Positions 2,936 through 64,000 of a stretch of 64,000 bases of DNA are shown piece after piece. Positions within the stretch are counted from its first letter, which is position 1, and each line of letters opens with the position of its first letter. Location of the stretch: assembly GCA_900319645.1 (NCBI GenBank), contig ONPG01000004.1, positions 1 through 64,000 on the forward strand, written 5' to 3'. The translations under genes were made by a program, and so were the position numbers. Source of the stretch: an uncultured Bacteroidales bacterium. GTDB taxonomy: Bacteria > Bacteroidota > Bacteroidia > Bacteroidales > Paludibacteraceae. The notes under the pieces are model-generated. The model was not told the origin of the DNA. It searched no databases and worked only from the letters and a program-made list of their open reading frames with translations.

Positions 2936-2962
2936 ATTATACTCCATATCAAGAAAGCCGTG

Positions 2963-4232: not shown

Positions 4233-4239
4233 ATCATTC

Positions 4240-5247: not shown

Positions 5248-5384
5248 AAACTCTTATATCTTAACTCATGCAATTTCTCTAAACCTTTCTCCGTCAAAAA
5301 ATATGTCTTTGTATTGTTCTGATGTCATATTCAAATTTTGTGTGTTTATATTTATTTCATACTCAACACTTTCCAATAGCCATC

Positions 5385-6956: not shown

Positions 6957-6975
6957 ATCAACAAATTTTGCGTTG

Positions 6976-7007
6976 CAAAATTACAAAAAAAATCCCACAT
7001 AGGCAAG
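6976..7007 (-). promoter_or_regulatory. Promoter of the AlbA/Schlafen-like gene
   Basis: A -33 box CTTG (7004-7007), 20-nt spacer and -7 box TAATTTTG (6976-6983) lie just upstream of the ATG. The leader would be about 13-20 nt. A dedicated promoter supports independent expression of this gene inside the polysaccharide block. Confidence 0.7.
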
Positions 7008-7101
7008 CATATGCGGGAAAATCTTTATTTTTTCATTTATTTTTCATATTTTAGGGACATTTTTGCCAGAGCCGTTCATTCAATAGCGTTTTTTTTGTGA
7101 T

Positions 7102-8184
7102 TTATATCTTTTTCCGCATTTTCAGCATCTTTACTCCCCATTTGCCTATGATATACAGCCATGGTTTGGCGACATACAGGAATCGTCCGTGTTCGACCAG
7201 TGTGCCTCCGAACTCCGCCTTGAAATCCCTTACGCCGTACGGCACGCCGGGGACTCCGGCACCCATCATGTCATACCGCGGGATACCATGCTGCGCTGCA
7301 TAACACATGCCGGCAAAGGTGGCAAAGACCGACGGATATTGATCTTTATATTGCCCATTCAGTCCGCATTCGAACCATTCATAAACCGCTTTTCCGTCCG
7401 TTACCACCATGCTACCGCCGATGATTACCCCTTCGTGCCGGGCGAACATAAACCGTCCTATACCTTGCCGGGAAGCCTCGATAAAGAACTCTGCTGGCCA
7501 CAGCGGCATCCGCACTTTCGTCTTGTATAACTCCGCTAAGATGGCATACCACTCCCGTACGTCCTGCTCGCTGACGACCTCATTCGTTAGCCCGGTTTCA
7601 ACTTGCCCTTTTCTGATCTGCCGTTTACGATTCTCACTCATCCGTTCCCGCATCTTCTCTCTATCAGTACAATCGACATGAAAGTTCAAGTGCGGGTTGT
7701 AGTTATACCCAGCTTTTCCAAAAGCCTCTTTCCATCGACTATAATCATTAAAGTTCCTTGTCTCAATATAGATAGGGGAATGATTGAATGAGTGAATGAG
7801 TGAATGAGTGCATGAGAGACGATCTTTTACTGCACCCATCAGTGCCTCAACTTCCTCATCCTTCGCATCATCCGCCAATACAGGTCCTCCAATAATAATT
7901 GCTCTCCTTGTAAAATACTGCTTGATAGCCGATTTCTCCTTTGTCACATAGCCGACGCAAACGCCACGAAGCGTTTGTAATGATGAATTGATGGAATGCA
8001 GCGCTTCGCTTAATAATGCATCGTTAGAAATAGCGATAACAAACGGCTTAAATAACTCCGGCTGTGAAGCAAAAAAATCATACGCATCTGGCAACTGAAA
8101 CCACGTTCCCGTTGCGCTTGTTTCCACCAAATTAGTCCACGCCGTTCTATCTATTTGTTCGTATGTTAGGATTTTATGCGACAT
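7102..8184 (-). CDS. FemAB/GNAT-fold peptidyltransferase-like protein (paralogue 2)
   Basis: 360 residues, homologous over most of its length to the FemAB-like protein at 4240-5247 (shared YEQIDR start; C-terminal GAGVPGVPYGVRDFKAEFGG block). The start MSHKILTYEQ is chosen because it aligns with the paralogue; a start four codons upstream is possible. It carries two low-complexity inserts absent from the paralogue: NDALLSEALHSINSSLQ near residues 48-65, coded by a hairpin repeat, and THSLIHSFNHS near residue 130, coded by an octamer repeat. Probable role: aminoacyl modification of a polysaccharide or peptidoglycan precursor. Confidence 0.83.
   Translation of the reverse strand: MSHKILTYEQIDRTAWTNLVETSATGTWFQLPDAYDFFASQPELFKPFVIAISNDALLSEALHSINSSLQTLRGVCVGYVTKEKSAIKQYFTRRAIIIGGPVLADDAKDEEVEALMGAVKDRLSCTHSLIHSFNHSPIYIETRNFNDYSRWKEAFGKAGYNYNPHLNFHVDCTDREKMRERMSENRKRQIRKGQVETGLTNEVVSEQDVREWYAILAELYKTKVRMPLWPAEFFIEASRQGIGRFMFARHEGVIIGGSMVVTDGKAVYEWFECGLNGQYKDQYPSVFATFAGMCYAAQHGIPRYDMMGAGVPGVPYGVRDFKAEFGGTLVEHGRFLYVAKPWLYIIGKWGVKMLKMRKKI
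7779..7816. repeat. Octamer tandem repeat (AATGAGTG) inside a FemAB-like gene
   Basis: AATGATTG, then three copies of AATGAGTG, then CATGAGAG, inside the coding region. The unit is eight bases, so gain or loss of one copy would shift the frame. Confidence 0.75.
7958..8020. repeat. Hairpin-word repeat inserted in frame in a FemAB-like gene
   Basis: Contains the 7-bp stem CAAACGC / GCGTTTG (7958-7964 and 7971-7977), the stem AGCG / CGCT around CTT (8000-8010), and AATGATG-like words between them. The same hairpin and word types fill the intergenic spaces near 47 and 49 kb. It encodes the extra segment that the paralogue lacks. Confidence 0.65.
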
Positions 8185-8256
8185 TCGTTTCTTCACTTCC
8201 TATCAAACTATTGAATTCGCAGATTTGTATTCGTAAATGAAGGTATTGAACTTCTA

Positions 8257-9588
8257 TCATTTACCCATAGACAAGTCATTCATAAAATAGCGTCGTTTGC
8301 CATTTTTGAGGACATCAAAATGGTCCACGTAATCAATCGAGAAATCACAGCCATCCCCCACAAAACGCTTCATTTCTTCGTTCAACAGGTTCTCTTGGTT
8401 CTTGTCCCATCCATCAGCCACTTGCAGTTGCATTTTGACTTCTTTACCGCTAATTTTCTGGATATCATAGGCTTTCACATCAAAATTACGCATCAAGATG
8501 GTAAAGCCGGGTGATGTGAGGACGTGCCCATTATCCAAGCGTAAGACGTCAGATGTGCGACCATATATTTTATGAAGAACTTGTCCATTATATACCGCAG
8601 AATTGTTATCCAATTCCGCCACATCGCCGTAGTCATACCGCAGCAGCGGGAAAGCCATACTTAGCAAATTAGTGGAGACTAACGTACCAACATTGGGTTC
8701 AATTTCATCAACCAGTTCCACATAAGCACTATAGCCCAAATAATAATTACGGGAAGTAACCTCATAGGCAGTAATGGCAGCATCTCGCGCTCCATAGCAA
8801 TCCATGACACGGCAGCCAAAAGCCTTCTCTATTGTCTCGCGATATACATTTGTGAGATTCTCGGATGTGGTAAAAGCCCCGCGCATATGGCTCATGTCCA
8901 AATGATTATCCAACGCGTATTTGGCCAGCAGATAGATGGAAGACGCATAACCATAGATATAATGTATCTTTTGCTTTTCCAAGATATCAATATACTGTCG
9001 GCACAACTCACCATCCATATTCATGCTGTTGTAGGCATGTTCGTTGCGTATCCGATCCAATATACGTCGAGCAAAAGGTGCGTTTTTCTTGAACAGCGAT
9101 GCACTCCCTAAAGCCATAAACTTATCGCCAAAACGATAACCTGTTGATTGCCAAGCAACAATCTTATCAGCGCTCACATATCCCCAGATATTCTCATCTA
9201 CCAGATACTGCATCGGCTCGCCTGTGGTTCCACCTGTACGTTCAGAACGATGAGGAAACAGTTTGACGTTATCCGGAACCATTTCTTCATAATGTGCGCG
9301 GATGTCTGCTTTTGTTAAGACGGGCAGTTTCTTCAGGTCTTCCATCGTATGGATATCTTCCGGTTTTAATCCTCGTTCATCAAAAACCTTCTTCCAATAT
9401 ACAGTGTGACAGTAAGCCTGCTGGACAATCAAGTGCAACTGTCCTTCCTGCCAATTACGAATTTGGTCGCGAGACCAATTGTTCATCGTTTGAATACGAT
9501 GATACCACTCCATGGAATTAGTTCCTTTGATTTTTTCTGCCAAAGGATAAATTATTCCCAATCGTAACCACTCATTAAATTTGCTCAT
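8257..9588 (-). CDS. PaaK/CapK-like adenylate-forming enzyme
   Basis: 443 residues similar to phenylacetate-CoA ligase and coenzyme F390 synthetase (COG1541), a family common in capsule clusters as CapK. The AMP-binding P-loop-like motif SERTGGTTGEP is near residue 118, and the C-terminal half carries YDYGDVAEL and KIYGRTSDVLRLDNG, matching the ANL fold hinge region. Probably cytoplasmic. In polysaccharide loci these enzymes are thought to activate an acyl or amino-acid group for sugar decoration, which would fit the neighbouring FemAB-like transferases. The substrate is unknown. It overlaps the preceding gene's stop by 14 bases. Confidence 0.85.
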   Translation of the reverse strand: MSKFNEWLRLGIIYPLAEKIKGTNSMEWYHRIQTMNNWSRDQIRNWQEGQLHLIVQQAYCHTVYWKKVFDERGLKPEDIHTMEDLKKLPVLTKADIRAHYEEMVPDNVKLFPHRSERTGGTTGEPMQYLVDENIWGYVSADKIVAWQSTGYRFGDKFMALGSASLFKKNAPFARRILDRIRNEHAYNSMNMDGELCRQYIDILEKQKIHYIYGYASSIYLLAKYALDNHLDMSHMRGAFTTSENLTNVYRETIEKAFGCRVMDCYGARDAAITAYEVTSRNYYLGYSAYVELVDEIEPNVGTLVSTNLLSMAFPLLRYDYGDVAELDNNSAVYNGQVLHKIYGRTSDVLRLDNGHVLTSPGFTILMRNFDVKAYDIQKISGKEVKMQLQVADGWDKNQENLLNEEMKRFVGDGCDFSIDYVDHFDVLKNGKRRYFMNDLSMGK

Positions 9589-10594
9589 ATAACGGTAATA
9601 TTTGTTTTCTTACATTTTCCCAACTATATTTCTGCACATCCTGATGTGCCTTTTCTATCATCAATAAACTATCCTTCTGATGTTCCAATGCCCAAAGGAT
9701 TTCATTCGTTAGTCCTTTCACCCCTTCATCTTTAGAGCCGTCGAAAAGCAATCCACTTTTCCGATGTTCGATTATAAATGGGACTCCGCCAACACGACTT
9801 GATATGGCCAACAAGCCAGCATTCATCGCTTCCATAATGGATACGGGCATATTATCCACCTTTGGAGCAGACAATAAGATATCATTTTTCTGTAAGAAGT
9901 CATAAATTTGCTCATTCGGCACTTGCCCCACGAATCGCACTCCAGTCAAATGATTATCTCTTACATACTGCTCCAGATCAGCTCGTTTATCTCCGTCACT
10001 AAGGACATCCAACGTGGCATCGGGATAGATCAAGAGTACCTGCTTATATGCTTGCAATATTAAATCAATACGATACATTTCAGACAAAGTGCGTACACTA
10101 ATGAGTTTTGGACGAATCTCAGTTTTAAAGCGATAGATATTTTGACGGAGTTCTATTATATTTGGTATTACCACGCATGGAATTCTGTATTCCTTAAATA
10201 CTTTTTCCAAATAGCCATTCAGGACAATAACTCTATCAGCCCTATTTAGCCATCTGCGGGCAAATTTTCCATGCCGAACAAAGTAATCAGCCGCTCCACC
10301 GCCATGATACGTGACAATGATACGTTTATGCCATATTTTCCCGGCAATGACTCCATATACAGTCGGCAGCATTCCCCATTCGGAACATGCGTGGATATGC
10401 AAGACATCATACTGCCTCGCGCTCCACAACAATTTAAGGAGCAGCCATATCCGCAACAAGGGATTAGCTTTCGTGGAAAAAATCTGCGTTGTATAGTCGT
10501 CTTCACATGCTATACATTTTGTCAGCATCTCCACTTGCCCGCTGATACCGCCTATTCCTTTGCGATAATTAGATATATAAAGTATTTTTTTCAT
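9575..10594 (-). CDS. Glycosyltransferase family 4
   Basis: 339 residues with the GT-B architecture. The N-terminal acceptor domain starts KILYISNYRKGIGGISGQ. The C-terminal donor domain has the E-x7-E-type motif in PVSIMEAMNAGLLAISS near residue 260 and GGVPFIIEHRKSGLLF. A retaining transferase adding one sugar to a lipid-linked oligosaccharide at the inner membrane face is expected. Donor and acceptor cannot be deduced. It is packed between the polymerase-like and CapK-like genes. Confidence 0.88.
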   Translation of the reverse strand: MKKILYISNYRKGIGGISGQVEMLTKCIACEDDYTTQIFSTKANPLLRIWLLLKLLWSARQYDVLHIHACSEWGMLPTVYGVIAGKIWHKRIIVTYHGGGAADYFVRHGKFARRWLNRADRVIVLNGYLEKVFKEYRIPCVVIPNIIELRQNIYRFKTEIRPKLISVRTLSEMYRIDLILQAYKQVLLIYPDATLDVLSDGDKRADLEQYVRDNHLTGVRFVGQVPNEQIYDFLQKNDILLSAPKVDNMPVSIMEAMNAGLLAISSRVGGVPFIIEHRKSGLLFDGSKDEGVKGLTNEILWALEHQKDSLLMIEKAHQDVQKYSWENVRKQILPLYEQI

Positions 10595-10597
10595 TTG

Positions 10598-11962
10598 CTA
10601 TTGAAAATATGTGTGTTTTCTGCCTATAAACTTGCCATCTGGCAAATATTGGATTTGCGAGTAGTACATTATAAAGATTAATATTAGCTGCATTATTGGT
10701 TCGCGTAAGCATTGCGCATTATAAAAAATGAAATCAAACATCACCAATGCATATAAACAAAGCCTTAATCGCCAATATTTGACAGGAATAAAAAAGTTCC
10801 AATAATACACAAAAAACATAATAATACCGATTATTCCAATAGCTAAATACAACAATACGAATCCCGTCATGGCTCCTCTACCATTAACTCCAAAGTTATC
10901 TTTTCTGCCACTATAATGAAAATGTCTTGGAGGAGCATATAATCTCGCTAATCCATTTCCAAACCAATATTCTTGGGAATAATTATCTATATCAACTATC
11001 CTATTTAGCATCAACTTGACCGCACCCACTCTACCATTACCTTCCCCACGATCCCCTTGTTTATTTTCCACACCCATAGAGTAATCCTCCGCATAGTTCA
11101 GGGCATATTCCGGGTCAAAACTGCCCCAGAATTTTTTTTCCGGGTTTAATGATGGCGTCAATCGCAAGCCAAAATAGAAAAACAATGGCACTATTAATAT
11201 TGTTGATATCACAACACCACGTTTGTATCGCTTTCTTGCCACATACATTGCTAATATCAGGAAGAATACTGGGAACAAAAAAATAACCGCTCGTTTTCCG
11301 GTTGCTATTCCGACCATCATCAATCCCGCCACAAACAACCATGATTTCCAACCCTTGATATCCATATTAGAATTCAGCAATACCCATGCTAATGCAACTA
11401 AAGGAAAACTCGTTCCAGCTCCGCCACCACCAATACCTCCGAATGTTCCAACCATTCCCTCTAACATATGTCCCGGTAGCAATATAAATTTCACTACTCC
11501 AGATATAATCTGAATGAGTATAAACTCAGTAAAGAACTTATTACAATAGACGGTATTAGTAGGATTGCGATGATGATAGTACCCAAAGACCAACAACGCA
11601 GCAAAAGGTACATAATACATTGAATATTGCGAGAACGTCATTAAGAATGTATCGTCATTCATATAAAGAGCATCCCATATAAAATACGCAGAAAAAACAA
11701 CAAACGTCCATAGCAAAACCAGCATTTTACCCTTTATTACACTCCACGCATCCAGTTTAAACACTAAATATGTTATCCATAGGGTATATATCATACGCAT
11801 ATATTGTGATATTAATCCCGGAACCCAATATGTTAAAGTTCCTTCAAAGCCCATGCATAGCATAAGAAGAAGGAAAGCACTACTTCGATAGCGTCTCGCC
11901 ATCCATAGAAATGCTATGAATGCTAAGGCATAATATATGTTTTGAACTATTATTAAACTCAT
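10598..11962 (-). CDS. O-antigen polymerase/ligase-like membrane protein (Wzy-like)
   Basis: About 454 residues with many hydrophobic segments, consistent with 10-12 membrane helices. A large polar loop of ~100 residues (about residues 265-365) contains many aromatic and Arg residues, as in the periplasmic loop of Wzy polymerases and WaaL ligases. Sequence identity across these families is low, so the call rests on topology and on position inside a polysaccharide cluster. A GTG codon lies upstream; the ATG giving MSLIIVQNIYY is preferred. Polymerase versus ligase cannot be settled from sequence alone. Confidence 0.75.
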   Translation of the reverse strand: MSLIIVQNIYYALAFIAFLWMARRYRSSAFLLLMLCMGFEGTLTYWVPGLISQYMRMIYTLWITYLVFKLDAWSVIKGKMLVLLWTFVVFSAYFIWDALYMNDDTFLMTFSQYSMYYVPFAALLVFGYYHHRNPTNTVYCNKFFTEFILIQIISGVVKFILLPGHMLEGMVGTFGGIGGGGAGTSFPLVALAWVLLNSNMDIKGWKSWLFVAGLMMVGIATGKRAVIFLFPVFFLILAMYVARKRYKRGVVISTILIVPLFFYFGLRLTPSLNPEKKFWGSFDPEYALNYAEDYSMGVENKQGDRGEGNGRVGAVKLMLNRIVDIDNYSQEYWFGNGLARLYAPPRHFHYSGRKDNFGVNGRGAMTGFVLLYLAIGIIGIIMFFVYYWNFFIPVKYWRLRLCLYALVMFDFIFYNAQCLREPIMQLILIFIMYYSQIQYLPDGKFIGRKHTYFQ

Positions 11963-11974
11963 AAAGGGCACATA

Positions 11975-13369
11975 TTAGTGCAGACGCGTTTTATTTTTAT
12001 ACACTTGTATTAAACCATATTGTTTAGTCTCTTTTTCATAAACCAGTTTCATTATGCTATCGTTTATTGGTAAAATCTCTTTGTAAGGTTGATAACGAGG
12101 TATATCTTGAGAGTTCAGAATGATATAATCATATTCTACTTGTTTATTTATTCGGAAATAAGCATGGTCTGAATGATAATCTGTTTCCATCAGCATGGGC
12201 CATTGTCGTATAGGGCCGAATACTTTTGCTCCTTTAGGCACTATCTGCTGCAAATCGCGCCGAAGGGTTGTATTTACTCGCTCATAATGCTTGATGTAAT
12301 TATAACTATAAGTCACACCCAAGTTCATGATACAGAAACATATATATAGCGCAACTATCCATTTTTTCTCATATCCTACTTTATCCCAAAAGATAGCCAA
12401 TAATATAGTAGCTATTAGAACGAAATAATCCACTCCGTATGTTGCCATCACTTCATCACTTGAGAATGGTATTGGAAAGATAGCAAGATGCGTTAGAGCA
12501 ATAATTGCTAAATCTTTATGAGCATTTTTCTTAACTATTAAAAATAGTAAAATGGCTATCAAAAACAGAATATATAGTACTCGCTTTCTATTTAAGAACA
12601 TGGATTTGAAGTATATCGGAATTGTGTAGAGCGCATCTCTAGGCGAAAATCTCGTTTCCACATAATCTTCCCCAGCAATATTGTAAGTATTTGACACCCA
12701 TGCAATAGAAGCAATGGCTGCAATTGCCATCATCAGTAATAATACTAATTGCCATAGACGCATCCATTGCTTTTCTTGAATGGTTTCTACTAATTGATAT
12801 ACTCCCATCAATGCGAAAGGTAGCAATGCAAAAGGATGAGCGCAAGCGGCGATATACGCGAAGAAACTCAATCCTACCATGTCCAACCAAGACCTCGATT
12901 CCTTATACCGCAGATACATCCACACGCCTCCGGCAAGACACATCATCGCGCAACCTTCAGGTCTTCCCCATCGAAAAGCTGAGTTGTATAGGTCTATAGT
13001 AACAAAGAACAAAAATGCCAAAGCACATGCCTGCCAACTGACTTTGAGTTGACGGAAACACGCATAAATGAACAACAATGTCAATACGCCACAGAAAACA
13101 TTTGCTAATCGAATAGCCAACAGGTCATATCCAAACAGATGCATAAACGTACCGGCAATCATCGGGAATAAGAAATTAGCATTCCCACGCGAACCCACTA
13201 TCGTATTAAGGAAACCGTTTCCATGAGCAAAATTATAGGCTGTACTGCCATACCATGCTTCATCATAGTGAACAGGATACAAATCTACAATATTCACCAA
13301 TTGGTTCACTAAGAACACCATAATGGCTATTACGAGCCAAAACAAATTGTTTTTATACATCTCTTTCAT
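11975..13369 (-). CDS. GT-C family (GT39/GT83-like) polyprenyl-phosphate-sugar glycosyltransferase, copy A
   Basis: 464 residues, about ten predicted membrane helices. The first periplasmic loop carries the acidic YDEAWYG motif (D36, E37) typical of GT-C enzymes that use polyprenyl-phosphate sugars. It is a tandem duplicate of the next gene: the first ~240 residues are nearly the same, the C-terminal half has diverged. With the adjacent GtrB- and GtrA-like genes it forms a periplasmic sugar-decoration module in which GtrB charges undecaprenyl phosphate, GtrA flips it, and this enzyme transfers the sugar. Confidence 0.87.
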   Translation of the reverse strand: MKEMYKNNLFWLVIAIMVFLVNQLVNIVDLYPVHYDEAWYGSTAYNFAHGNGFLNTIVGSRGNANFLFPMIAGTFMHLFGYDLLAIRLANVFCGVLTLLFIYACFRQLKVSWQACALAFLFFVTIDLYNSAFRWGRPEGCAMMCLAGGVWMYLRYKESRSWLDMVGLSFFAYIAACAHPFALLPFALMGVYQLVETIQEKQWMRLWQLVLLLMMAIAAIASIAWVSNTYNIAGEDYVETRFSPRDALYTIPIYFKSMFLNRKRVLYILFLIAILLFLIVKKNAHKDLAIIALTHLAIFPIPFSSDEVMATYGVDYFVLIATILLAIFWDKVGYEKKWIVALYICFCIMNLGVTYSYNYIKHYERVNTTLRRDLQQIVPKGAKVFGPIRQWPMLMETDYHSDHAYFRINKQVEYDYIILNSQDIPRYQPYKEILPINDSIMKLVYEKETKQYGLIQVYKNKTRLH

Positions 13370-54850: not shown

Positions 54851-55540
54851 TTATTCTGCAGAGGGTTGGTCGGCAGCAGTTTTATCTGCGGCAGGTTGGT
54901 CTGCGGCAGGTTGGTCGGTGGCGGGTTGGTCGGCGGGGAAAGCGAGGGCTTTGTACACAGCAGCTTCGACACCTATCAGAGCCGGAACGGCAAAGATAAC
55001 CAACAGGAAGACAAGGATTACTCCGATCACCTTGAGCATAGCCACGTCGCCGATATGGAACAAGGCGTTGACCACAGCAACTGCGATGCAAAGGCAGAGA
55101 GCCAGCAACATCTCAGCGCAGAAAATACGCCATTTGTTGCCATATGTAAGGCGGTTGCTTTCGCGGAGGGCATCCAGCGGAGCCATATCACGGTCAATAA
55201 ACAGAATAACAGCCAGATACCACGCATAGCTGATCACGATTCCGGGAATAAATCCGAACGCAATGCCAACCCATACAGCTCCCATCATAAGCGCCATAAG
55301 GATAAAGAACTCGCCCATATTGCGACGGTATTTGCTGTCGAAAATGAACGTAGGGTTAATCACATTGCCTTTTGCCATCTCGGCCGGCAGGGAAGCCATC
55401 GCAATCGTGGTTCCGACGTTGAGATAAGGAATCCAAACGGTTAATACGTAGAGGATTACGGTGCAAACAACACTGAGGTAATTCAGCAGAGCCAAGGACA
55501 CACCATCTTTGATGGTTGCTAAAATGTCAAGACGTTTCAT
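54851..55540 (-). CDS. DUF975/YciC-like membrane protein with an Ala/Pro/Asp-rich tail
   Basis: 229 residues, about five or six membrane helices, with a short cytosolic repeat tail (ADQPATDQPAADQPAADK). DALRESNRLTYGNKWRIFCAEM resembles the conserved region of DUF975 and related proteins. After the TAA stop the same frame stays open for 16 more codons (SAPASDAKNVTPAAEA) to a second TAA at 54800, with the same Ala-rich composition, so the stop may be a recent nonsense change in a longer gene. Function unknown. Confidence 0.72.
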   Translation of the reverse strand: MKRLDILATIKDGVSLALLNYLSVVCTVILYVLTVWIPYLNVGTTIAMASLPAEMAKGNVINPTFIFDSKYRRNMGEFFILMALMMGAVWVGIAFGFIPGIVISYAWYLAVILFIDRDMAPLDALRESNRLTYGNKWRIFCAEMLLALCLCIAVAVVNALFHIGDVAMLKVIGVILVFLLVIFAVPALIGVEAAVYKALAFPADQPATDQPAADQPAADKTAADQPSAE

Positions 55541-55641
55541 AGAATTTGAGTTTTTAGTTTATTCTTTATTATCATTACAGCCGTTGAGCGGCTTTGGAAT
55601 TTACCATTTGACGGTTACGCCTTTGAGGGTGCTTCCCCACT

Positions 55642-56469
55642 CTATTTCTGGTATTTGCCGACGAAGCGAAGCGCCAAGAAAAGGAGCCAATCGGGCGTGT
55701 GTTTCAAGAGAGGCGTGGAGAGCCAGTTGATGATACCCGGAGTATCGGCTTTCTTGTTGCGGAAGAGGTCGCGCAGGGCACGTTTGACCAGTTTCTCGGG
55801 CGGAATACTGACCGTCAGGCTGACAGCCAACCGGCGAAGATTAGGTGCCAAACCGAAGAGAGCCGTGTCCACCGCCCCGGGAGCCATTACCGTAATACCC
55901 ACATTCTGAGGTTTTAACTCGTACCAAAGAGATTTGGAGAAATTGTAGATAAAGGCTTTGGAGGCATTGTAGGTCTGAATACCCGGCATCGCCATCCAGG
56001 CGGACATCGAAGACATATTAAGTATATAGCCTTTCATCCGTTTGCGGCCGCAAAGGCGCTGTTGTGCTTCTTCGTCCGTCAACTGCCTGCTGACCATATC
56101 TGCGGCGAAGAGCCGCGTGAGTTTAGCCACCGTCATGACGTGCAACTGCAGCATCAGTTCGATTCGACGCATAGCCGTCTCGGTATAAGGATTGAAGAAG
56201 AACACGCCTGCGTTGTTGATAAGGATATCCACCTGCAGACGGTTGTTGAGACAAAAGTCGTGCAGTTGCTCGGCGGCATCCGGCAGACTGAGGTCGGCAT
56301 AGTGCGAGACAGCCTTGATGTTATGTTGTGAAGCAAGCTCTAAGGCTACCTGCTGCAGTTCCTTCTCCTGGTTGCTGACCAGGAGCAGATCGCAGTGGTA
56401 GTCGCGCGCCAACTGGGTGGCGTATTGCAGGCCTATGCCGCTACTTGCTCCTGTTACTAATGCGAGCAT
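55642..56469 (-). CDS. Short-chain dehydrogenase, candidate hydroxysteroid dehydrogenase
   Basis: 275 residues, classical SDR. TGASSGIG (6-13), NNAG (85-88), and the catalytic set S near 154, Y167, K171 in TYNASK. The C-terminal extension (TDTPGIINWLSTPLLK and hydrophobic end) resembles the 17beta-HSD12/DltE-like group. It ends an operon with a flavin oxidoreductase and a steroid 5alpha-reductase homologue, so oxidation or reduction of a sterol or bile-acid hydroxyl is plausible. General SDR activity on lipids is the alternative. Confidence 0.88.
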   Translation of the reverse strand: MLALVTGASSGIGLQYATQLARDYHCDLLLVSNQEKELQQVALELASQHNIKAVSHYADLSLPDAAEQLHDFCLNNRLQVDILINNAGVFFFNPYTETAMRRIELMLQLHVMTVAKLTRLFAADMVSRQLTDEEAQQRLCGRKRMKGYILNMSSMSAWMAMPGIQTYNASKAFIYNFSKSLWYELKPQNVGITVMAPGAVDTALFGLAPNLRRLAVSLTVSIPPEKLVKRALRDLFRNKKADTPGIINWLSTPLLKHTPDWLLFLALRFVGKYQK

Positions 56470-56524
56470 GAATCCATTTACGATTTGACGATTTACGATT
56501 TACGAGTTGACGATTTACGATTTA
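56470..56524. repeat. Word repeat ATTTACGA between SDR and flavin oxidoreductase genes
   Basis: ATTTACGATTTGACGATTT-type words fill the junction (about five copies) and extend to the oxidoreductase stop. The same word fills the next junction at 57829-57878. Confidence 0.75.
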
Positions 56525-57828
56525 CGTTGTTTTTGTGCTTCAACGGATTGTTTGGCACGTGCCTCGAGTTGGGTTATCTCACGCTGGAGTCGCTTGGGAA
56601 TCACCTCTCCGTCGCGCTCCACGCACTCGTGACACTTCATATCGAGCGTGTACATACGTCCGACGCAATAATTGGAACGTCCGCAACCAGCGTGGTAATG
56701 CGGGTTCTCCTTCACATGATTGACAAAATCCGGATCCTTGATGAGCACATGCGCCAGTTGGAAGAGTTCAAATCCCTCGTCCATGATTTGCTGGCAGTTA
56801 TCGCCCGACTGGACACCTCCGACGTAGATTAACGTTGGTAATTGGTGATTGGCGTCAGATGATTGCAGCTCCTCAAAGGCTTTCTGGAAGATCTTGGCTT
56901 TTTCCATAAAATAGAGTTCGCGGAAAGGCGAAGTAGGAGTCATTACCGCGGCTACACCGGGAATATTGAGAGCCGCCTTGAGCCACCAGAAAGATTTCAT
57001 ATCCATGTAATGGGCGAGTGTCTTGTGAGGCATAGCGCCGGAGAGGATGGTCATCGGCGAACGGCTGACCGTTCCGCCCGAGAGGACGATGCCGTGCACG
57101 TGATGTTTGGCAATCTCCTTCGCAATATAAATACCTTCCTCGACGGACACGCCACGCCAGCAATCGTCCCACATATTGGTTTTGACGACAACCGCCAGAT
57201 CGTTTCCTGCGTGCTCCATTACAGCGTCCAATACCTCGTTGAGGAACCGGCAACGGTTCTCCAGCGACCCGCCGTACTCATCGCAACGGTGGTTGGTGCG
57301 TCGAGCGAGGAACTGCGAGATCAGATAGGCGTGTCCGGCGTGGATCTCCACGCAGTCGAAGCCACATTCGCGTGCCCAGTCAACCGCTTCGCCGAACTTA
57401 CGCACGAGGGTCTTGATCTCCGACACCTTCAAGCGGCGATGAATAGTAGGGCTGTAGAGGTTAAAACCATTGGAAGCGGAGACCGGCATACAATGACAAG
57501 TGTAGAAATGCGTCATATTGCCGCAGTGACCGAGTTGGACAGACGCCTTGGCGCCCTCGGCGTGGATAGCGTCGGTCATCTTTTTCATATCCGGGATTAT
57601 CTCCGGCCGCACATAAAGTTGTCCGTCGAACGAAACGCCGGATAGATCCACAGCGCAGTAAGCCACCGTGGTCATCCCGACTCCACCGCGCGCCACAGAG
57701 ACGTGGTAGTCCTGCAACTGCTGAGTAGGCCGGTTAGCACGCGCCATATTCTCGAACGCTGCAGAACGGATAAACCGGTTGCGCAACGTGATGGGTCCTA
57801 ATTGAAAAGGAGTAAATAATTTGTTCAT
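56515..57828 (-). CDS. NADH:flavin oxidoreductase (Old Yellow Enzyme family), candidate 5beta-reductase
   Basis: 437 residues, an FMN TIM barrel. FTPFQLGPITLRNRFIRSA opens it; the active-site block is HAGHAYLISQFL (163-174) with RCDEYGGSLENR next. The C-terminus has a Cys cluster (CGRSNYC, KCHEC), like the Fe-S region of BaiCD/2,4-dienoyl-CoA reductases, but the second Rossmann domain is absent. OYE enzymes of this type reduce the double bond of 3-oxo-delta4 steroids in gut bacteria. Pairing with a 5alpha-reductase homologue supports a steroid or bile-acid substrate. Confidence 0.9.
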   Translation of the reverse strand: MNKLFTPFQLGPITLRNRFIRSAAFENMARANRPTQQLQDYHVSVARGGVGMTTVAYCAVDLSGVSFDGQLYVRPEIIPDMKKMTDAIHAEGAKASVQLGHCGNMTHFYTCHCMPVSASNGFNLYSPTIHRRLKVSEIKTLVRKFGEAVDWARECGFDCVEIHAGHAYLISQFLARRTNHRCDEYGGSLENRCRFLNEVLDAVMEHAGNDLAVVVKTNMWDDCWRGVSVEEGIYIAKEIAKHHVHGIVLSGGTVSRSPMTILSGAMPHKTLAHYMDMKSFWWLKAALNIPGVAAVMTPTSPFRELYFMEKAKIFQKAFEELQSSDANHQLPTLIYVGGVQSGDNCQQIMDEGFELFQLAHVLIKDPDFVNHVKENPHYHAGCGRSNYCVGRMYTLDMKCHECVERDGEVIPKRLQREITQLEARAKQSVEAQKQRKS

Positions 57829-57878
57829 TTACGATTGGACAATTACGATTTACGATTGGACGATTTACGATTTACGAT
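57829..57878. repeat. Word repeat ATTTACGA between flavin oxidoreductase and 5alpha-reductase genes
   Basis: Copies of ACGATTTACGATT-type words with GGAC breaks fill the 50-bp junction, matching the repeat on the other side of the oxidoreductase gene. Confidence 0.75.
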
Positions 57879-58682
57879 TTAATAAATAAACGGAATAATA
57901 CGTTTGAGTTTCTTGGGGTCGAACTCGTCCGGGAACTCCTCGGCGTATTTCTTGTAGATGGCGTTGGAACGCGGCACAAGGTTGCAGCAACTGAACCAGA
58001 AGAACAGCAGTCCTGCCACCGACCAGGTCAGAATAGCAAATCCCAGCCACTCCGTAATCTCACCAAGGTAATTGGCGCTGGTGACGTATTTGTACAAACC
58101 TTGTTTAGGCAGATAATGGTTGGTGTCGCCGGGTTTGCGCAGATGGCGGATAATATAGTCCGAGTGCATATTGATACACCAGCCGGTGAAGAAAATAATT
58201 GTTCCGATAATAAACTGCGGCGAAGTCACCCAAGCCGTGGTATAAAGGTCGGGATAGTACTGCGGCGCAAGGTGGAAGAGCCAGAAGCCCTGGATATAGC
58301 CGTTAATGAGGTTCCACACCACCGAAAGAATCATAATAGCGAACGGCATCTGGCCGTTTCCCTTCAAGAGAAGCGGGAAGATGAACGAGCGCTGGAAATA
58401 ATGGAACTCAAAGAAGAGGAAGAAGAGCCAATACGGCACTTTCTGTGTCAGTCCACCGTAAAGCGGGATGGACTTCATATAAAGATAGAACACCACCAGG
58501 AAGACAGGCACCTCCATCAGGAACCAGCCGGCCTTGTTGCTCATCGTCGGTCCCCATTTGTCAGAACGCATCTTGCCGTAGCCGGCATCCACGAAATACA
58601 AAGACACAAAGACCACCAGTCCGACGATAAACATAATATAGACCAGGTCGTAGAAAAAATCAATTGTATAAAGATTAGCCAT
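57879..58682 (-). CDS. 3-oxo-5alpha-steroid 4-dehydrogenase (steroid 5alpha-reductase) homologue
   Basis: 267 residues from the ATG giving ANLYTIDFFYDL; the upstream ten codons overlap the promoter and are rejected. About six to seven membrane helices. The C-terminal third carries the SRD5A signature HSDYIIRHLRKPGDT (173-187), YKYVTSANYLGEITEW (197-212) and RIIPFIY at the end, very close to vertebrate 5alpha-reductases in pattern. It should reduce a delta4 double bond with NADPH in the membrane. First gene of an operon with an OYE enzyme and an SDR. Confidence 0.93.
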   Translation of the reverse strand: MANLYTIDFFYDLVYIMFIVGLVVFVSLYFVDAGYGKMRSDKWGPTMSNKAGWFLMEVPVFLVVFYLYMKSIPLYGGLTQKVPYWLFFLFFEFHYFQRSFIFPLLLKGNGQMPFAIMILSVVWNLINGYIQGFWLFHLAPQYYPDLYTTAWVTSPQFIIGTIIFFTGWCINMHSDYIIRHLRKPGDTNHYLPKQGLYKYVTSANYLGEITEWLGFAILTWSVAGLLFFWFSCCNLVPRSNAIYKKYAEEFPDEFDPKKLKRIIPFIY

Positions 58683-58709
58683 AAACTTTGTTTTTTTGCA
58701 AATTTGGGG

Positions 58710-58741
58710 CAAAGTTACTAAAAATATTTGATACTACCAAA
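58710..58741 (-). promoter_or_regulatory. Promoter of the 5alpha-reductase operon
   Basis: TTTG (58738-58741), 20-nt spacer, TAACTTTG (58710-58717). It lies inside the frame extension of the reductase ORF, which fixes the start at the downstream ATG; leader ~22 nt. Confidence 0.83.
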
Positions 58742-58747
58742 AAGTTC

Positions 58748-59707
58748 TTAATTTTTAGCGTGTTTTACCTCTTTTTGGCAGACAAACAGGCCAAAAATAA
58801 TCAAACCTATACCAATCCACTTGACAAGTGGCAGTTGTTCGCCGAAGAAAAGCAGCATCCAAAGCGCCGTGAAAGCCGGGCGGATATTGTTGAAGGCATT
58901 CGCTTCGGTGACGCCTATCTGCCGAAGGGCGTAGCAGAACAAGATAAACGCTATCACGGAAGCAAAAACCGTCAGGTAGCCCACGGAGAAGATACTTATC
59001 GCCAAGGGCGAATGGATGTCCGCCAACTGCGACCAGTCGATAGCCGTCACCGCTTCGGGTCCCTCGCGGAAGAACCACAGCGGATAGAACAGGCAGAGAC
59101 TCACCAGTTGCGCATAGAAAATGATGGTCAGCGGGTTGTATTTAGCCGGCAGACGGCGCATGATCACCGAGTCGGTTACCGCGGCGGTCACCGCCGCAAA
59201 AGCCAAGGGGATGCCCCAGTAACTGCCTACGGAGAGTTGCGAGTCAAGCGACGAGGGGTGTGAGAAATTGAAAAGGAGCGCAAACATCCCGAGCGTAGAA
59301 ATCAGGATACCCCATATATTATTCCGCGTGACGCGCTCGCGTAAGAGGATGGCTGCGAAGATCGGGCTGAGCAGCGGCGAGGTGGACAACAGCGCCTCGG
59401 CTATCGTCGGGCTGTTGAGCGCGCGGTAGGTAAACGTCTCGAGCAGATAATAGAGGAAAGGCTGGCAGATACCGGCAAACACAAACAGCGGCAGGTCTTT
59501 TTTGTCCGGCAGTTGGAGCGCGAACAGCGAGTGTCCCTGACGAACCAATCCCACTATCAGCATCAGCAGAACCGCCGGCGTGAAGCGGAAGATGATCATC
59601 GTCAACGGCGGCAGAGAAACCAGCGCGTGCTTGATAGCGATGCCGCTAATAGACCAGATAATCATCGAAATGATGATAGCTATTGTAGGCAGAAGTTTGT
59701 TGGACAT
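58748..59707 (-). CDS. EamA/DMT family transporter
   Basis: 319 residues from the ATG giving SNKLLPTIAIIISMIIWSIS. Ten membrane helices in two EamA halves (IIWSISGIAIKHALVSLPP in the first, GVTEANAFNNIRPAFTALW in the second). DMT transporters export small metabolites; the substrate is unknown. It ends 7 bp before the 5alpha-reductase promoter, so it belongs to a separate unit. Word repeats AATTGATA lie just upstream and an alternative start inside them is rejected. Confidence 0.9.
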   Translation of the reverse strand: MSNKLLPTIAIIISMIIWSISGIAIKHALVSLPPLTMIIFRFTPAVLLMLIVGLVRQGHSLFALQLPDKKDLPLFVFAGICQPFLYYLLETFTYRALNSPTIAEALLSTSPLLSPIFAAILLRERVTRNNIWGILISTLGMFALLFNFSHPSSLDSQLSVGSYWGIPLAFAAVTAAVTDSVIMRRLPAKYNPLTIIFYAQLVSLCLFYPLWFFREGPEAVTAIDWSQLADIHSPLAISIFSVGYLTVFASVIAFILFCYALRQIGVTEANAFNNIRPAFTALWMLLFFGEQLPLVKWIGIGLIIFGLFVCQKEVKHAKN

Positions 59708-59752
59708 TGGCAGTTGATAATTGATAATTGACAACTGATAATTGACAATTTA
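59708..59752. repeat. Word repeat AATTGATA before the EamA gene
   Basis: Copies of GATAATTGATAATTGACAA and variants fill the space between the acyltransferase stop and the EamA ATG. Confidence 0.7.
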
Positions 59753-60643
59753 TTCCCGGTCAGGTTTGGCAGGCCAGGAGTTACGGGTGATACCCGCCAG
59801 GCGGCACATCGTCTCGTGGGCAAGGAGTCGCAGACGCTCGGTCTCGGCAGCGCGCGGAGCCGTTGTGTCCGGGAAAATGGGCGCACCTATCGTAACTTGG
59901 GTCAGCGGTTCGTCTTTGGGTCCGAATAAACGGTAGAACCCCGTCCTTGGACGATACGTGATCACACACGGGATGAGCGGTTTGTTGTACTTATACGCCA
60001 TCGTGAAAGCGCCTTTCTGGAACGGACGCAGAGGCTTGTACCAATCCCAGCGTTTGGCTTCCGGGAAAATATGGAACCAGTAGCCGCGACGGTGGAACTC
60101 GTCGAAGGCGGCGTTGAACGCTTTCATCGCACTCAGTCCCTCCTCGGGCGCTGGAATAGGCACTCCGCCGATGATTTGCAGATAGTATTGGTCCTTTGTG
60201 CGGAAATTAGGCGCGAACATAGGAATACGCGTGTGGGAGGAGGCGTGGAGCGCAGTGAAGATCGAAGCACAATCATGGCGGTAACAATGGTTGCCGAGGG
60301 TGATAGTCCCTGCGCTGAGATCGAACTGCCGGAGCCAACGACGGACGTGGCACGACGAGCGATACCATTTCTGCTCGCCGTCAATACGCCAGCGCAGACC
60401 GTATTTGACACGCAGAACAATACCCAATATACGTAGCACGACGTTGTAGCCCCACGCTATTTTCAAGCGGTTGCGAAACGAGAAATCAGCGTACGGATAG
60501 TCGGCATCTATCTCCGGATACGGGCGGTCGTAAACAGGTTTGTAGAGTCCCTCGTAGGGGTTGTCCTCGGGATAATCGATTGCAACAGGCGGGACGTAGG
60601 TATCCGCTGTCACTTGAAGAGAGGTATAGCGTTTGTTAGACAT
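59750..60643 (-). CDS. PlsC-like lysophospholipid/lipid acyltransferase
   Basis: 297 residues. The catalytic H-x4-D motif is in TLGNHCYRHDCASIF near residue 120; FHIFPEAKRWDW and PLIPCVITYRP match motifs III and IV of the AGPAT family. No clear membrane helix, but probably membrane-associated. It transfers an acyl chain to a glycerol-phosphate or similar acceptor. It lies in a run with HAD, GH3 and RND/MMPL genes, which suggests a dedicated lipid pathway. Confidence 0.85.
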   Translation of the reverse strand: MSNKRYTSLQVTADTYVPPVAIDYPEDNPYEGLYKPVYDRPYPEIDADYPYADFSFRNRLKIAWGYNVVLRILGIVLRVKYGLRWRIDGEQKWYRSSCHVRRWLRQFDLSAGTITLGNHCYRHDCASIFTALHASSHTRIPMFAPNFRTKDQYYLQIIGGVPIPAPEEGLSAMKAFNAAFDEFHRRGYWFHIFPEAKRWDWYKPLRPFQKGAFTMAYKYNKPLIPCVITYRPRTGFYRLFGPKDEPLTQVTIGAPIFPDTTAPRAAETERLRLLAHETMCRLAGITRNSWPAKPDRE

Positions 60644-60657
60644 TGAACGTTGAAAAA

Positions 60658-61263
60658 TTAGTCTTTTATTATCATGTAATGTGCGCCGACTGCGCGTGCA
60701 GCTGCTCCGTCTTTCTCGTCACGGTCTCCGATAAAAAGCGTGGTCTCAGGTTTGGCGGAAAGCGCTTTCATCACTTTCATGACGGAAGCTTTGGCGGGTT
60801 TGAGTGCACCCGTGGAGGGCGCATCCAGACGCAAGGCGAACCGCGAAGGATCGATGCCCAAGACCTGCAGTTTCTCATCCACACAACCATAGTCGGAATA
60901 GATTGCCAAGGTCACGGGGAGGTCCCGAGTATTGTCCAGAATTTGCAACACGCTCTCCCTTGGGCGGCAGGACTTGCCTATCACGCGTATCATCGCGGGC
61001 AGATAGACGTGGTGGTACCATTTCTCCGCCACTCGCGGCGACCACCAGTGTCCTCGTGCCATGCGTGAGAAGAAAGCGTCGTAGAAGGCCTGTTCGGAGC
61101 CGAAATCGTGGTTGTGCATGGTCTTACGTGCCATCCGCTCTGCCGCCAGCAAAGGCAGACACCACCAGAGGCGGCGTACCATCCGACGGGCTAAACCGCG
61201 CTTGTCGTAGAGCGTGCCGTCGAGGTCGAAAATGATGGTTTGTATGTTATCAGGAATTTTCAC
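60658..61263 (-). CDS. HAD-superfamily hydrolase
   Basis: 201 residues if translation starts at the GTG giving KIPDNIQTIIFDLDGTLYD; the longer frame overlaps the GH3 coding region by 90 bases and adds a basic, unconserved stretch. Motif I IIFDLDGTLYDK, motif II AIYSDYGC near residue 108, a lysine in TGALKPAKASV and motif IV LFIGDRDEKDGAAARAVG near residue 170. A small-molecule phosphatase; substrate unknown. Confidence 0.82.
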   Translation of the reverse strand: MKIPDNIQTIIFDLDGTLYDKRGLARRMVRRLWWCLPLLAAERMARKTMHNHDFGSEQAFYDAFFSRMARGHWWSPRVAEKWYHHVYLPAMIRVIGKSCRPRESVLQILDNTRDLPVTLAIYSDYGCVDEKLQVLGIDPSRFALRLDAPSTGALKPAKASVMKVMKALSAKPETTLFIGDRDEKDGAAARAVGAHYMIIKD

Positions 61264-63130
61264 TTTTCTTTTCGCGTTTCTGGTTGCGTGCTGCACGGCG
61301 TTCAGCACGGCGTGCGACACGTGCCTTGTGGCGATCGTCAATCGTGTTGGCTCGGTTGATAATATTCTCGCTGATACGATCGAAGCCCGTCTCCAGACGC
61401 TGGATAAGATTGAACTTGGAACGTCGTTTCTCGTCCTGCATCAGCAGGTTGAACTTAAACTGGCCGTCGCGGAAACCATCCTGAAGACACGCGGCTTTGA
61501 ATCGCGCGTACGCGTTTGAAAGGAGTATGTGCGTCTCAGGATCGTGCAGGCGGAATGACTTCCGTTTGGATTCGTACTCGAGGTTGATCTGCTGGAGTTT
61601 GGCATCGACCACTTTGGTGAACACTTCGGCTTCCGTCTGGCGAATTTTTTCGTTCTCGAACTCGTAGTAGAAATGGTATCTGGACTCCTCCACATCCGCA
61701 AAGCCGACAAAGAACTTGGTCTTGATGCCGGTTTCCTCCTCTGCCTTGTGCACGGCATCAAGGAACTGGGGTTCGTAGAGTTTCTCTCCCGTCATGGAGA
61801 CGATGCCGTTGACCTTGCTGATCATGTGCACGGTAGGCGTGTTGCGGTAGAAGCCGCCCACCTCGATGAGGTCGTTCATGTTGTAACGGAAAAGACCCGA
61901 ATAGGTCGTCACGTAGGCGCAGTAGCGTTTGCCGAGCTCGAGTTCGGAGATCTGAAGGAAATGTTTGTTGGGTTTGTCCAGTTCGCTTTCCTCGACGAAC
62001 TCGTAATAATGGAAATGCGGGAAGAGGACCGATTCGTTGGTGTCGTCGAGCGAGAAACCGAAACGGCACTCGGTGGCGATATAGCCAAGTTCCTGGTAGA
62101 AGGTCTTGTCCCAGTCGAACATATCCATATATTTGTCCATGTAAATCTTGGTGTTGCCGCATTTCCACGTGCTGAGGTATTGCAGCCACGGCCAGAAATC
62201 CTTGGGTTCGAGCGTCCCTTTCTCCGCCAGGATCTTTCTCAGTTCGTCCGCCCGCTCGGGATTAGGCGCCATATACGCGTCGAGTTCGTCGCGGATGTCA
62301 AAGGGTATCTCAAAATCCTTGGTAAGCGTACCGTGCTCGATGTCGTTGATCATCAGATCGGTGTTCTCGTGGAGCGCACGGAGGAGTTCGAGTATCGTGG
62401 ATGGGTTGGCGGTCGCCCAGAGTGTGACATCGCGATGCTGTAGCGCCAGACGCATAAGCGTATAGTTGCGGGCGGCGTAGTCCGGGATAGACATCACGCA
62501 CGAAGGCGCCGTGTAATGTTTTTTGATAATAGCCGGAATGTCTCGTACGAGCACACCGCTGACCGAGCCGTAGAGGGTGCCGTCCGGAGCGTATCCTTCG
62601 CACTCCTTGCCCACCGTCGTGAAAATATGTCCGCCGAAAATACGGCTGCGGTGCTTGACGAAGTTCCACGTCCAGATGTGGGACATCTTGCCATAGACAT
62701 CCTTGAGATACTTATGGGTCATCGGAATCCATTTGGGTTCGGAGGTAGTGCCGGAAGTGGTGGCGTACATATCGGGTTTGCCCGGGAAAAGGACGTTCTC
62801 CTCCCCGTTTTTATGCCTCTCCACGTAAGGCCGGAGCGTCTCGAAAGAGTCGTTGACGGGCACGTAGAGGCGATAAAGCCGGAAGAGGTCGTCGGCGGTG
62901 GTAGCGGAAAGAATACGATCGAAATGATGCTCCTTGCCATAAACCGTGTCGCGGCTGATAGTCAGGATGTCACGCAGGGTTTTCTCCGCCGTGTGCTTGG
63001 GTTTGCGACTCCAGAAACGCAGACGGAGTGTCTGCGAGCCGCCTACCAGCATCAGCATGAAGTTGATCAGAAACGGGTATGGCAGTGCTCTGCCTTCATT
63101 GTCCAGATACGGTTTTTGTTTGTTGCTCAT
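61250..63130 (-). CDS. GH3 auxin-responsive promoter family (acyl-adenylate-forming) protein
   Basis: 626 residues from the ATG giving SNKQKPYLDNEGRALPYPF, which avoids a long overlap with the RND gene. ATP-binding motif 1 TSGTTSEPKWIPMTH near residue 145; YATTSGTTSEPK, FRYNMNDLIEVGGFYRNTP near residue 450 and the C-terminal SKVNGIVSMTGEKLYEPQF are GH3 blocks. Plant GH3 enzymes conjugate amino acids to acyl acids; the bacterial members are uncharacterised but are frequent near lipid genes in Bacteroidetes. A basic, Arg-rich tail of ~35 residues ends the protein. Confidence 0.92.
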   Translation of the reverse strand: MSNKQKPYLDNEGRALPYPFLINFMLMLVGGSQTLRLRFWSRKPKHTAEKTLRDILTISRDTVYGKEHHFDRILSATTADDLFRLYRLYVPVNDSFETLRPYVERHKNGEENVLFPGKPDMYATTSGTTSEPKWIPMTHKYLKDVYGKMSHIWTWNFVKHRSRIFGGHIFTTVGKECEGYAPDGTLYGSVSGVLVRDIPAIIKKHYTAPSCVMSIPDYAARNYTLMRLALQHRDVTLWATANPSTILELLRALHENTDLMINDIEHGTLTKDFEIPFDIRDELDAYMAPNPERADELRKILAEKGTLEPKDFWPWLQYLSTWKCGNTKIYMDKYMDMFDWDKTFYQELGYIATECRFGFSLDDTNESVLFPHFHYYEFVEESELDKPNKHFLQISELELGKRYCAYVTTYSGLFRYNMNDLIEVGGFYRNTPTVHMISKVNGIVSMTGEKLYEPQFLDAVHKAEEETGIKTKFFVGFADVEESRYHFYYEFENEKIRQTEAEVFTKVVDAKLQQINLEYESKRKSFRLHDPETHILLSNAYARFKAACLQDGFRDGQFKFNLLMQDEKRRSKFNLIQRLETGFDRISENIINRANTIDDRHKARVARRAERRAARNQKREKKSENS

Positions 63131-64000
63131 CGTCCGTTTGATTTGGTTCGTCCGCGGTTGCAGGCTCTGAGAAACGGTTCTTCTTGCCGTAAACCCCCCA
63201 TTTATCCAACGCCACAAGCACAGCCGGGACAACAGTGAGTATTAAGAGTATTGCGACAAATGCACCCACAGCGATGCAGCCGACAATATTAGAAATCATC
63301 AAATCGTCAATGAGTGCCGCCATCACGCCCGGAGCAATAACCATAATCAGTCCGGAAGTCATGATTGTGCGGATCGAACCTCTATAAGCCGCAGCGGCTG
63401 CGTCCTTGGGCAGCATCGTACGGCGGTATTCGCGGTAGTAGTTCGTGAGGAGAATACCATAATCAATCGTGGCTCCCATCAAGATGGCCTGCACGATCAG
63501 GTAAGCGAGATACAGCATCTGTCCTGCCACCAAACCGGACACCACCACATTGACGTACACCGCCGTCATCACAGTCACCACGAGAATAGTCGGAACGATG
63601 AGGGAACGGAACGTGACAGCCACAATCAGGAAGATAGACAGGATGGTGAGCAACGTAACGATATTCATCTCGTGGTTGAAGCCGTTGCGCATTTCGGCGT
63701 ACATCACCGACTCGCCCACGTAGAAATGTTCATTCTCCAGACAAGCGTCCGCCATCGAGGTGAGTCTGTCCACAAACGCGTAAGTCTCAGGCGACTCAGG
63801 AGGCAGCGAGGTGAGTAGCACTAACAGCGAATGGTCGGGCTTGCGCATTTGTCCGATGCCGTCCATCACTTGTGTGCGGACCTCAGCCACTTGGGTGCGC
63901 GAACTATCCGGGATAATTGCCGCCAGGCGCGGGTCATAGACCAAGGTATCGCACACGAAGAGAAGCAAGCGGTCCAGTCCCAAGTGGATTGTATCGCACT
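63096..64000 (-). CDS. RND/MMPL family transporter, C-terminal part
   Basis: The frame is open to the last base of the window, so the N-terminal part is missing; at least 300 residues are seen. The C-terminal SSD-like bundle has five or six helices with MGATIDYGILLTNYYRE (the D-Y relay block) and TSGLIMVIAPGVMAA. MMPL-type RND proteins export lipids or hydrophobic compounds. The last 35 bases overlap the GH3 start, so the genes are likely co-translated, supporting a joint lipid-export function. Confidence 0.9.
   Translation of the reverse strand, partial: CDTIHLGLDRLLLFVCDTLVYDPRLAAIIPDSSRTQVAEVRTQVMDGIGQMRKPDHSLLVLLTSLPPESPETYAFVDRLTSMADACLENEHFYVGESVMYAEMRNGFNHEMNIVTLLTILSIFLIVAVTFRSLIVPTILVVTVMTAVYVNVVVSGLVAGQMLYLAYLIVQAILMGATIDYGILLTNYYREYRRTMLPKDAAAAAYRGSIRTIMTSGLIMVIAPGVMAALIDDLMISNIVGCIAVGAFVAILLILTVVPAVLVALDKWGVYGKKNRFSEPATADEPNQTDDEQQTKTVSGQ

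Follow-up and report, generated by a model that had tools for sequence, protein, structure and literature searches.

The closest described relatives of the locus analyzed here are clusters for bile-acid reduction in Bacteroidota. In P. merdae, O. laneus, and B. dorei, a steroid 5-alpha-reductase (5AR), an NADH:flavin oxidoreductase considered a putative 5-beta-reductase (5BR), and a 3-beta-hydroxysteroid dehydrogenase (3-beta-HSDH) are reported to be encoded together (PMC10382948, PMC9645264, PMC12697870). In particular, disruption of the P. merdae 5AR has been reported to stop the formation of allolithocholic acid (alloLCA) derivatives (PMC10382948). As one study reported SRD5A-type genes in almost every Bacteroidetes isolate from chicken caecum (PMC6069880), the occurrence of such a gene is in itself no surprise. 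In ruminants, sheep have been reported to oxidize and reduce sapogenins to epismilagenin, smilagenone, smilagenin, and tigogenin (PMC10385484), and diosgenin is described as being saturated and epimerized to epismilagenin in the rumen, the disease concerned being photosensitization (PMC5535167). Here, we describe a trio of genes encoding a 5AR, an Old Yellow Enzyme-type ene-reductase (OYE), and a short-chain dehydrogenase (SDR) on the minus strand of the window, i.e., the whole 64,000-nucleotide stretch analyzed (positions 1-64000 of contig C17 of genome G000, which comprises 2.64 Mb in 48 contigs and is 84.2% complete). The trio is a variant of the known Bacteroidota steroid cluster. It is read here, at about even probability, as a steroid A-ring redox operon whose native substrates in the genus would most likely be diet-derived steroids of the forestomach and not bile acids.

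Gene order and promoter

Relatives were scanned by means of the 5AR, and the best 80 of 218 were kept; all of them, like the nearest named relatives of G000, are from metagenome-assembled genomes titled Paludibacteraceae or Bacteroidales bacterium. The 5AR, the OYE, and the SDR type of the window (SDR-A) occur together, with order and strand kept, in 78 of these 80 loci; the exceptions are a contig that stops within the OYE gene (L057) and a locus at which neither OYE nor SDR was seen (L079). Across the trio loci, the two intergenic gaps measure 18 bp and 1 bp at the median, with ranges of -1 to 485 and -29 to 175, respectively. The motif TANNTTTG, which we take to be the Bacteroidota -7 box, is found at most 120 bp upstream of the 5AR gene in 73/80 loci (mononucleotide-shuffle expectation 0.09), but upstream of the OYE gene in only 5/79 and of the SDR gene in 0/78. 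Its copy in the window, TAACTTTG, lies 27 bases ahead of an ATG, and for this reason the ATG start of the 5AR (267 amino acids) is preferred over the listed TTG start (277 amino acids). The three enzyme genes are a single transcription unit under one promoter. A scan for sigma-70 promoters and terminators was uninformative, with 8 promoter-like sites against a shuffle mean of 4.6 and 6 terminator-like sites against 5.3.

Beyond the genus of the window, 40 5AR loci (L121-L160) were compared, one of which (G077) is from the same family; the OYE gene adjoins or is near the 5AR gene in 23 of the 40. Moreover, the pair is present in Phocaeicola massiliensis, by current naming a congener of a reported isoalloLCA producer (PMC10382948), in which the 5AR and the OYE are each 51% identical to the window proteins. 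The conserved order, the single promoter, and the 5AR-OYE pair of Phocaeicola massiliensis argue for a steroid operon. The record that carries the Phocaeicola massiliensis cluster (L178, positions 2017-10849) is labeled as a 140-kb plasmid, which is doubtful because neighboring open reading frames resemble by eye aconitase, isocitrate dehydrogenase, and citrate synthase.

The three enzymes

The 5AR matches PF02544 with 138 bits (cut-off 22.6). In phmmer comparisons with solved structures, it retrieves PbSRD5A (PDB 7c83, E 1.9e-55) and human SRD5A2 (4.6e-42), followed by a weak third match to an enoyl-CoA reductase (5.8e-8), and its AlphaFold model, with a predicted local distance difference test score (pLDDT) of 87.1, superimposes on the same two proteins (TMq 0.86 to 7c83 and 0.77 to 7bw1), the third fold match having an E value of 0.078. 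An alignment of 121 Bacteroidales sequences was made up of the window and L002-L081, 30 loci of about 47-71% identity, and 10 loci of about 35-41%. Residues E57, Y91, R94, D164, R171, E197, R227, and Y235 are invariant in it, N160 is kept in 120 sequences, and N193 is kept in 118. Since no solved structures other than PbSRD5A and human SRD5A2 resemble it strongly in sequence and fold, and since E57, Y91, and most NADPH-site residues are kept throughout, the protein is likely a steroid reductase. Such an enzyme would reduce a 3-oxo-delta4 steroid by delivering hydride from NADPH to C5 on the alpha face. The QEY motif of human SRD5A2 (Q56, E57, Y91) reads Met-Glu-Tyr in the window protein, with Glu and Tyr in place and Gln absent; the claim is therefore confined to an SRD5A-like enzyme of the Bacteroidales lineage.

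The OYE reaches 196 bits against PF00724, of which positions 1-255 (of 342) are covered, and has no second nucleotide-binding domain. The FAD/NAD(P) half present in BaiCD and FadH is likewise absent from the corresponding proteins of other families (406-467 amino acids, n=23), in which C382-x5-C388-x10-C399 of the tail is invariant (23/23) and the position of C402 is Cys in 5/23. Compared with the Fe-S cysteine set of BaiCD, the tail has three invariant Cys and no conserved fourth, and a [4Fe-4S] cluster would be no more than a possibility. The best NCBIfam models are BaiCD (171.3 bits), mycofactocin OYE 2 (170.6), and NamA (140.9), all far under their cut-offs; membership in BaiCD was rejected because its cut-off is 825 bits and the match covers only positions 2-255 of 642. 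H163 and H166 align with the His pair of YqjM and Y168 with its Tyr, of which FadH retains the Tyr only; these residues presumably have the catalytic roles of their YqjM counterparts, and their conservation points to an enone-type ene-reductase. The predicted structure (pLDDT 84.8) is about as close to YqjM-type OYEs as to naphthoyl-CoA reductase and FadH. Residues N166 and S171 of ci2350 are described as distinguishing 5-beta-reductases acting on hormones from those acting on bile acids (PMC12238238); at the aligned positions, the OYE has Ala167 and Gln172, the signature of neither clade. Using flavin mononucleotide (FMN), the OYE may reduce the same double bond as the 5AR on the opposite face, or form it in the reverse direction.

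The third protein, SDR-A, matches PF00106 with 116 bits, and its S154, Y167, and K171 are near-invariant. It would interconvert 3-oxo and 3-hydroxy groups, so that the trio as a whole could control C3 and shuttle a steroid among the 5-beta, delta4, and 5-alpha states. This enzyme chemistry is likely. An earlier note made from the sequence had described the products of the operon as a protein with an SRD5A signature, a BaiCD-like OYE lacking the second Rossmann domain, and an SDR, all driven by one promoter, and the results given so far bear this description out.

A second SDR-A-like gene of G000 (40% identity) is located at C17:89488-90237, and at L078 two SDR-A-like genes in tandem-like order follow the OYE gene (positions 10078-12139). 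The OYEs of L078 and L080 are just 62-63% identical to the window OYE, though the corresponding 5ARs are 72-74% identical. Another SDR, SDR-B, which is 21-27% identical to SDR-A, is present in many of the 23 OYE-bearing loci elsewhere; SDR-A alone adjoins in seven of them, both types in nine, SDR-B alone in three, and neither in four. The Phocaeicola massiliensis locus has the order 5AR-OYE-SDR-B without SDR-A, and the identity of its SDR-B to SDR-A is 29% over 92 amino acids. By sequence, the window SDR belongs to a lineage other than that of the Phocaeicola SDR-B. Among 41 genomes of the genus, including G000, SDR-B was found in none at E 1e-20; the positive control, drawn from other genomes only, recovered it in 10 of 23 chosen genomes, including all 7 with an adjacent SDR-B gene.

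Bile acids and dietary steroids as possible substrates

The earlier note went on to suggest that the operon does the same as the neighboring 5AR, 5BR, and 3-beta-HSDH genes of gut Bacteroidales, with allo or isoallo bile acids as products or steroid hormones of the host as substrates; such activity is reported for P. merdae, O. laneus, and B. dorei. The likeness of a 5AR-OYE core with an SDR to the reported cluster of a 5AR, a predicted 3-beta-HSDH, and a flavin oxidoreductase (PMC10382948) stands, and the same core is found in Phocaeicola massiliensis; the third gene is of another SDR lineage than the Phocaeicola one, however, and the OYE lacks, in the alignment, the residues of the bile-acid clade. 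The assumed substrate is not supported either. PF02275, the bile-salt-hydrolase family, which is not specific for bile salts, was counted as full-length at 100 bits or more, a cut set after the hits were known. At this cut it is present in 3 of the 41 genus genomes and absent from G000, while the 5AR is present in 40 of them (all but G012); nine more genus genomes with weaker matches (best 44.6 bits) were left uncounted. Of these three, G430 can be equated with L078 by its coordinates and is from a water deer rectum. An organ is given in 21 of the 80 titles: 8 rumen, 5 reticulum, 3 omasum, and 1 each of abomasum, duodenum, colon, rectum, and horse faeces. Thus, 16 of the 21 stated organs among the best 80 of 218 relatives are forestomach, which bile does not normally reach. 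Other titles bear RUG names, which we take to denote rumen uncultured genomes. Because full-length PF02275 is rare where the 5AR is near-universal, SDR-B was found in none of the genus genomes, and the forestomach prevails among the stated organs, bile acids are disfavored as the substrate; a bile-acid or hormone role for the trio in this genus is considered unlikely, and the earlier note was probably too quick to assign such a role in this genome.

Diet-derived plant steroids are preferred instead. By their stereochemistry, the sapogenin products named above require 5-beta reduction, 5-alpha reduction, and redox chemistry at C3, and this match to the chemistry assigned to the trio favors plant steroids. 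In the genus, the native substrates would be steroidal sapogenins and perhaps phytosterol-derived ketones. A more specific proposal, which we put forward tentatively and hold to be doubtful as a whole, is that the trio may be the enzyme set with which forestomach Bacteroidales convert diosgenin, via its 3-oxo-delta4 ketone, into smilagenone, epismilagenin, and tigogenin, the step underlying saponin-linked photosensitization of sheep; the bile-type core would then have been re-purposed with another SDR as a family-hopping cassette. Among the literature matches listed, none on sapogenins and steroid reductases contained the word rumen, and none on steroids, bile acids, or saponins named Paludibacteraceae, which does not prove that such work is absent. 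On the present proposal, plant sapogenin saturation and epimerization in the rumen, processes known from their products, gain testable enzyme candidates.

Several observations weigh against the dietary interpretation or the steroid chemistry behind it. The link to sapogenins is drawn from place and chemistry only, and the three genus genomes with full-length PF02275 and 5 of the 21 stated organs fit exposure to bile, some genus members being from duodenum, colon, or rectum. In a sample of Bacteroidales genomes at the order level, PF02275 of at least 100 bits is present in 27/47 genomes whose 5AR is close (best E < 1e-77) versus 40/346 others, an association that favors the bile-acid proposal of the earlier note. 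Division of the 23 OYE-bearing loci among L121-L160 by adjacent SDR points the other way: PF02275 of at least 100 bits is present in 9/9 genomes with both types, 2/3 with SDR-B only, 1/7 with SDR-A only, and 4/4 with neither. Among the loci examined, it accompanies an adjacent SDR-B far more often than SDR-A alone, and in the genus of the window it is found in 3/41. The difference between loci with an adjacent SDR-B (11/12) and those with SDR-A only (1/7) has a Fisher p of 0.0017, or 0.026 by family; these values are descriptive, as several groupings were compared and the genomes are related, and the test left out the four loci with neither SDR adjacent (G124, G044, G162, and G249), all with PF02275. 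G124 has SDR-B elsewhere in the genome, and the other three have SDR-A-like genes elsewhere. Close 5AR homologues (47-52%) without an adjoining OYE gene occur at L139-L141, L144, L147, and L149-L150, in five genomes; none of the five has PF02275 of at least 100 bits.

The remaining points against this interpretation concern the proteins. The position of Gln56 is Met in all 121 Bacteroidales 5AR sequences, and human SRD5A2 is reported to lose activity when Q56 is changed to Ala or Leu (PMC7815742). The position of His231 is Ile in all 81 sequences from the window and L002-L081, Ile, Leu, or Val in the next 30, and, among the last 10, His in nine and Asn in one. The top NCBIfam model for SDR-A is mycolate reductase (115.5 bits, cut-off 380). 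Because Met56 is shared by the 121 sequences and by Phocaeicola massiliensis, it is taken as a lineage trait; given this and the reported effect of the P. merdae disruption, it is not counted against steroid reduction.

Flanking sequence, history, and known systems

The trio lies between a gene for an EamA exporter, which precedes it on the minus strand, and a gene for a membrane protein weakly similar to DUF975/UPF0259 (Table 1).

Table 1. Positions of the trio and of associated features in the window
Feature	Position	Strand	Basis
5AR, SRD5A-type membrane steroid 5-alpha-reductase (likely), operon gene 1	57879..58682	-	PF02544, 267 aa
OYE, FMN ene-reductase with three-Cys tail, candidate 5-beta-reductase/dehydrogenase	56515..57828	-	PF00724
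SDR-A, short-chain dehydrogenase, candidate 3-hydroxysteroid dehydrogenase	55642..56469	-	PF00106
TAACTTTG, putative -7 box of the trio promoter	58710..58717	-	motif position and conservation upstream of 5AR
7/22-bp repeat array, 5AR-OYE junction; dispersed word, not judged functional	57827..57881	.	
7/22-bp repeat array, OYE-SDR junction; dispersed word, not judged functional	56476..56526	.	
DUF975/UPF0259-like membrane protein, judged outside the operon	54851..55540	-	below Pfam cut-offs

The earlier note had drawn attention to identical word repeats at both internal junctions. The arrays are real, but they are dispersed short repeats that are not special to the trio. Three copies of AAATCGT in a row have 9 matches in the genome (two overlapping) and are present in 12/41 genus genomes (reversed control 0), at least two TAAATCG words are found at both junctions in 0/78 related loci and at one junction in 1/78, and a period-7 array of any word occurs at the 5AR-OYE junction in 8/78 and at the OYE-SDR junction in 11/78. 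A role of the shared words in operon regulation was rejected on the grounds of this genome-wide dispersal and lack of conservation. A third array, of another heptad (TTGATAA-type), precedes the EamA gene at 59714-59750. A TAACTGA heptad is reported to precede start codons in Beggiatoaceae as well as in a few Bacteroidetes (PMC4679880); it resembles the window arrays in being a 7-bp direct repeat near start codons but differs in its word, and no earlier study of TAAATCG was found in the literature searched.

The same note had regarded the DUF975-like protein as a possible co-transcribed accessory. This was rejected, since, of the 71 loci whose sequence extends far enough, only one has its gene next to the trio; the matches of the protein to the two families (22.5 and 28.8 bits) are both under the cut-offs. 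A 15/30-bp tandem repeat at 54864-54936 encodes its Ala-Asp-Gln-Pro-rich tail. On the other side, positions 58748-63232 hold a block of genes for a GH3 protein (OlsH-like, under cut-off), a HAD protein, an acyltransferase, and EamA. The GH3 gene is upstream of the trio in 53/74 genus loci and in 0/23 OYE-bearing loci outside the genus; for this reason, and because the trio has its own promoter, the block was rejected as part of the pathway.

The history of the trio appears to differ from that of its host. For RpoB, G000 shares 77% identity with G077, which is of the same family, and 69% with another family (f81), whereas the trio proteins are 70-71% (5AR), 78-79% (OYE), and 73-74% (SDR) identical to those of f81 but only 55%, 59%, and 58% identical to those of G077. 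Quick trees were built from 21 of the 81 genus sequences and the 40 outside loci, with long branches flagged. In these, the genus of the window (g1) and f81 lie on one side of a branch with support of 99-100, and approximately unbiased (AU) tests reject a grouping of g1 with G077 (p 0.007, 2.5e-65, and 4.5e-4). In the 5AR tree, g1 forms a clade beside f81, and in the OYE tree, f81 falls inside g1 (AU p 8e-5). Because these trees and identities disagree with RpoB, the trio was probably transferred between families, in a direction that is unsettled. In f81, the trio is interrupted by other genes.

These data also bear on an endogenous lipid role, in which the 5AR would act on a polyprenol-like or long-chain enone or enoyl lipid and SDR-A on a keto group of lipids made by the cell itself, with no exogenous steroid involved. 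The housekeeping-like distribution of the 5AR in the genus, the mycolate reductase match of SDR-A, the GH3-HAD-acyltransferase block, and the replacement of Q56 and H231 would all suit such a role. It is nevertheless rated as rather improbable, given that the 5AR matches SRD5A1/2-type enzymes, its match to an enoyl-CoA reductase being weak (no search aimed at SRD5A3-type enzymes was made), that the block adjoins none of the 23 OYE-bearing loci outside the genus and the trio has its own promoter, that the history of the trio is non-vertical, and that a Bacteroidota 5AR is reported to be active on bile acids in vivo (PMC10382948).

The 5AR shares its fold, E57/Y91, and most NADPH-site residues with PbSRD5A and human SRD5A2 but is only 37% and 32% identical to them and has Met for Gln56 and Ile for His231. 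The OYE shares the barrel of BaiCD and ci2350-type 5-beta-reductases, BaiCD being its top-scoring curated model, but differs from them in the missing FAD/NAD(P) half, the YqjM-type His pair, and the Ala and Gln at the specificity positions. As in the published Bacteroidota cluster, an SRD5A-type 5AR, a BaiCD-like flavin oxidoreductase, and an SDR are encoded in the same order. In contrast, the third gene is SDR-A in the window and SDR-B in Phocaeicola massiliensis, the named species with which it was compared, and the genus of the window is mostly from the forestomach and mostly without full-length PF02275. As the same core is thus found with two unlike SDRs, the pair of 5AR and flavin oxidoreductase is by itself no marker of bile-acid metabolism.

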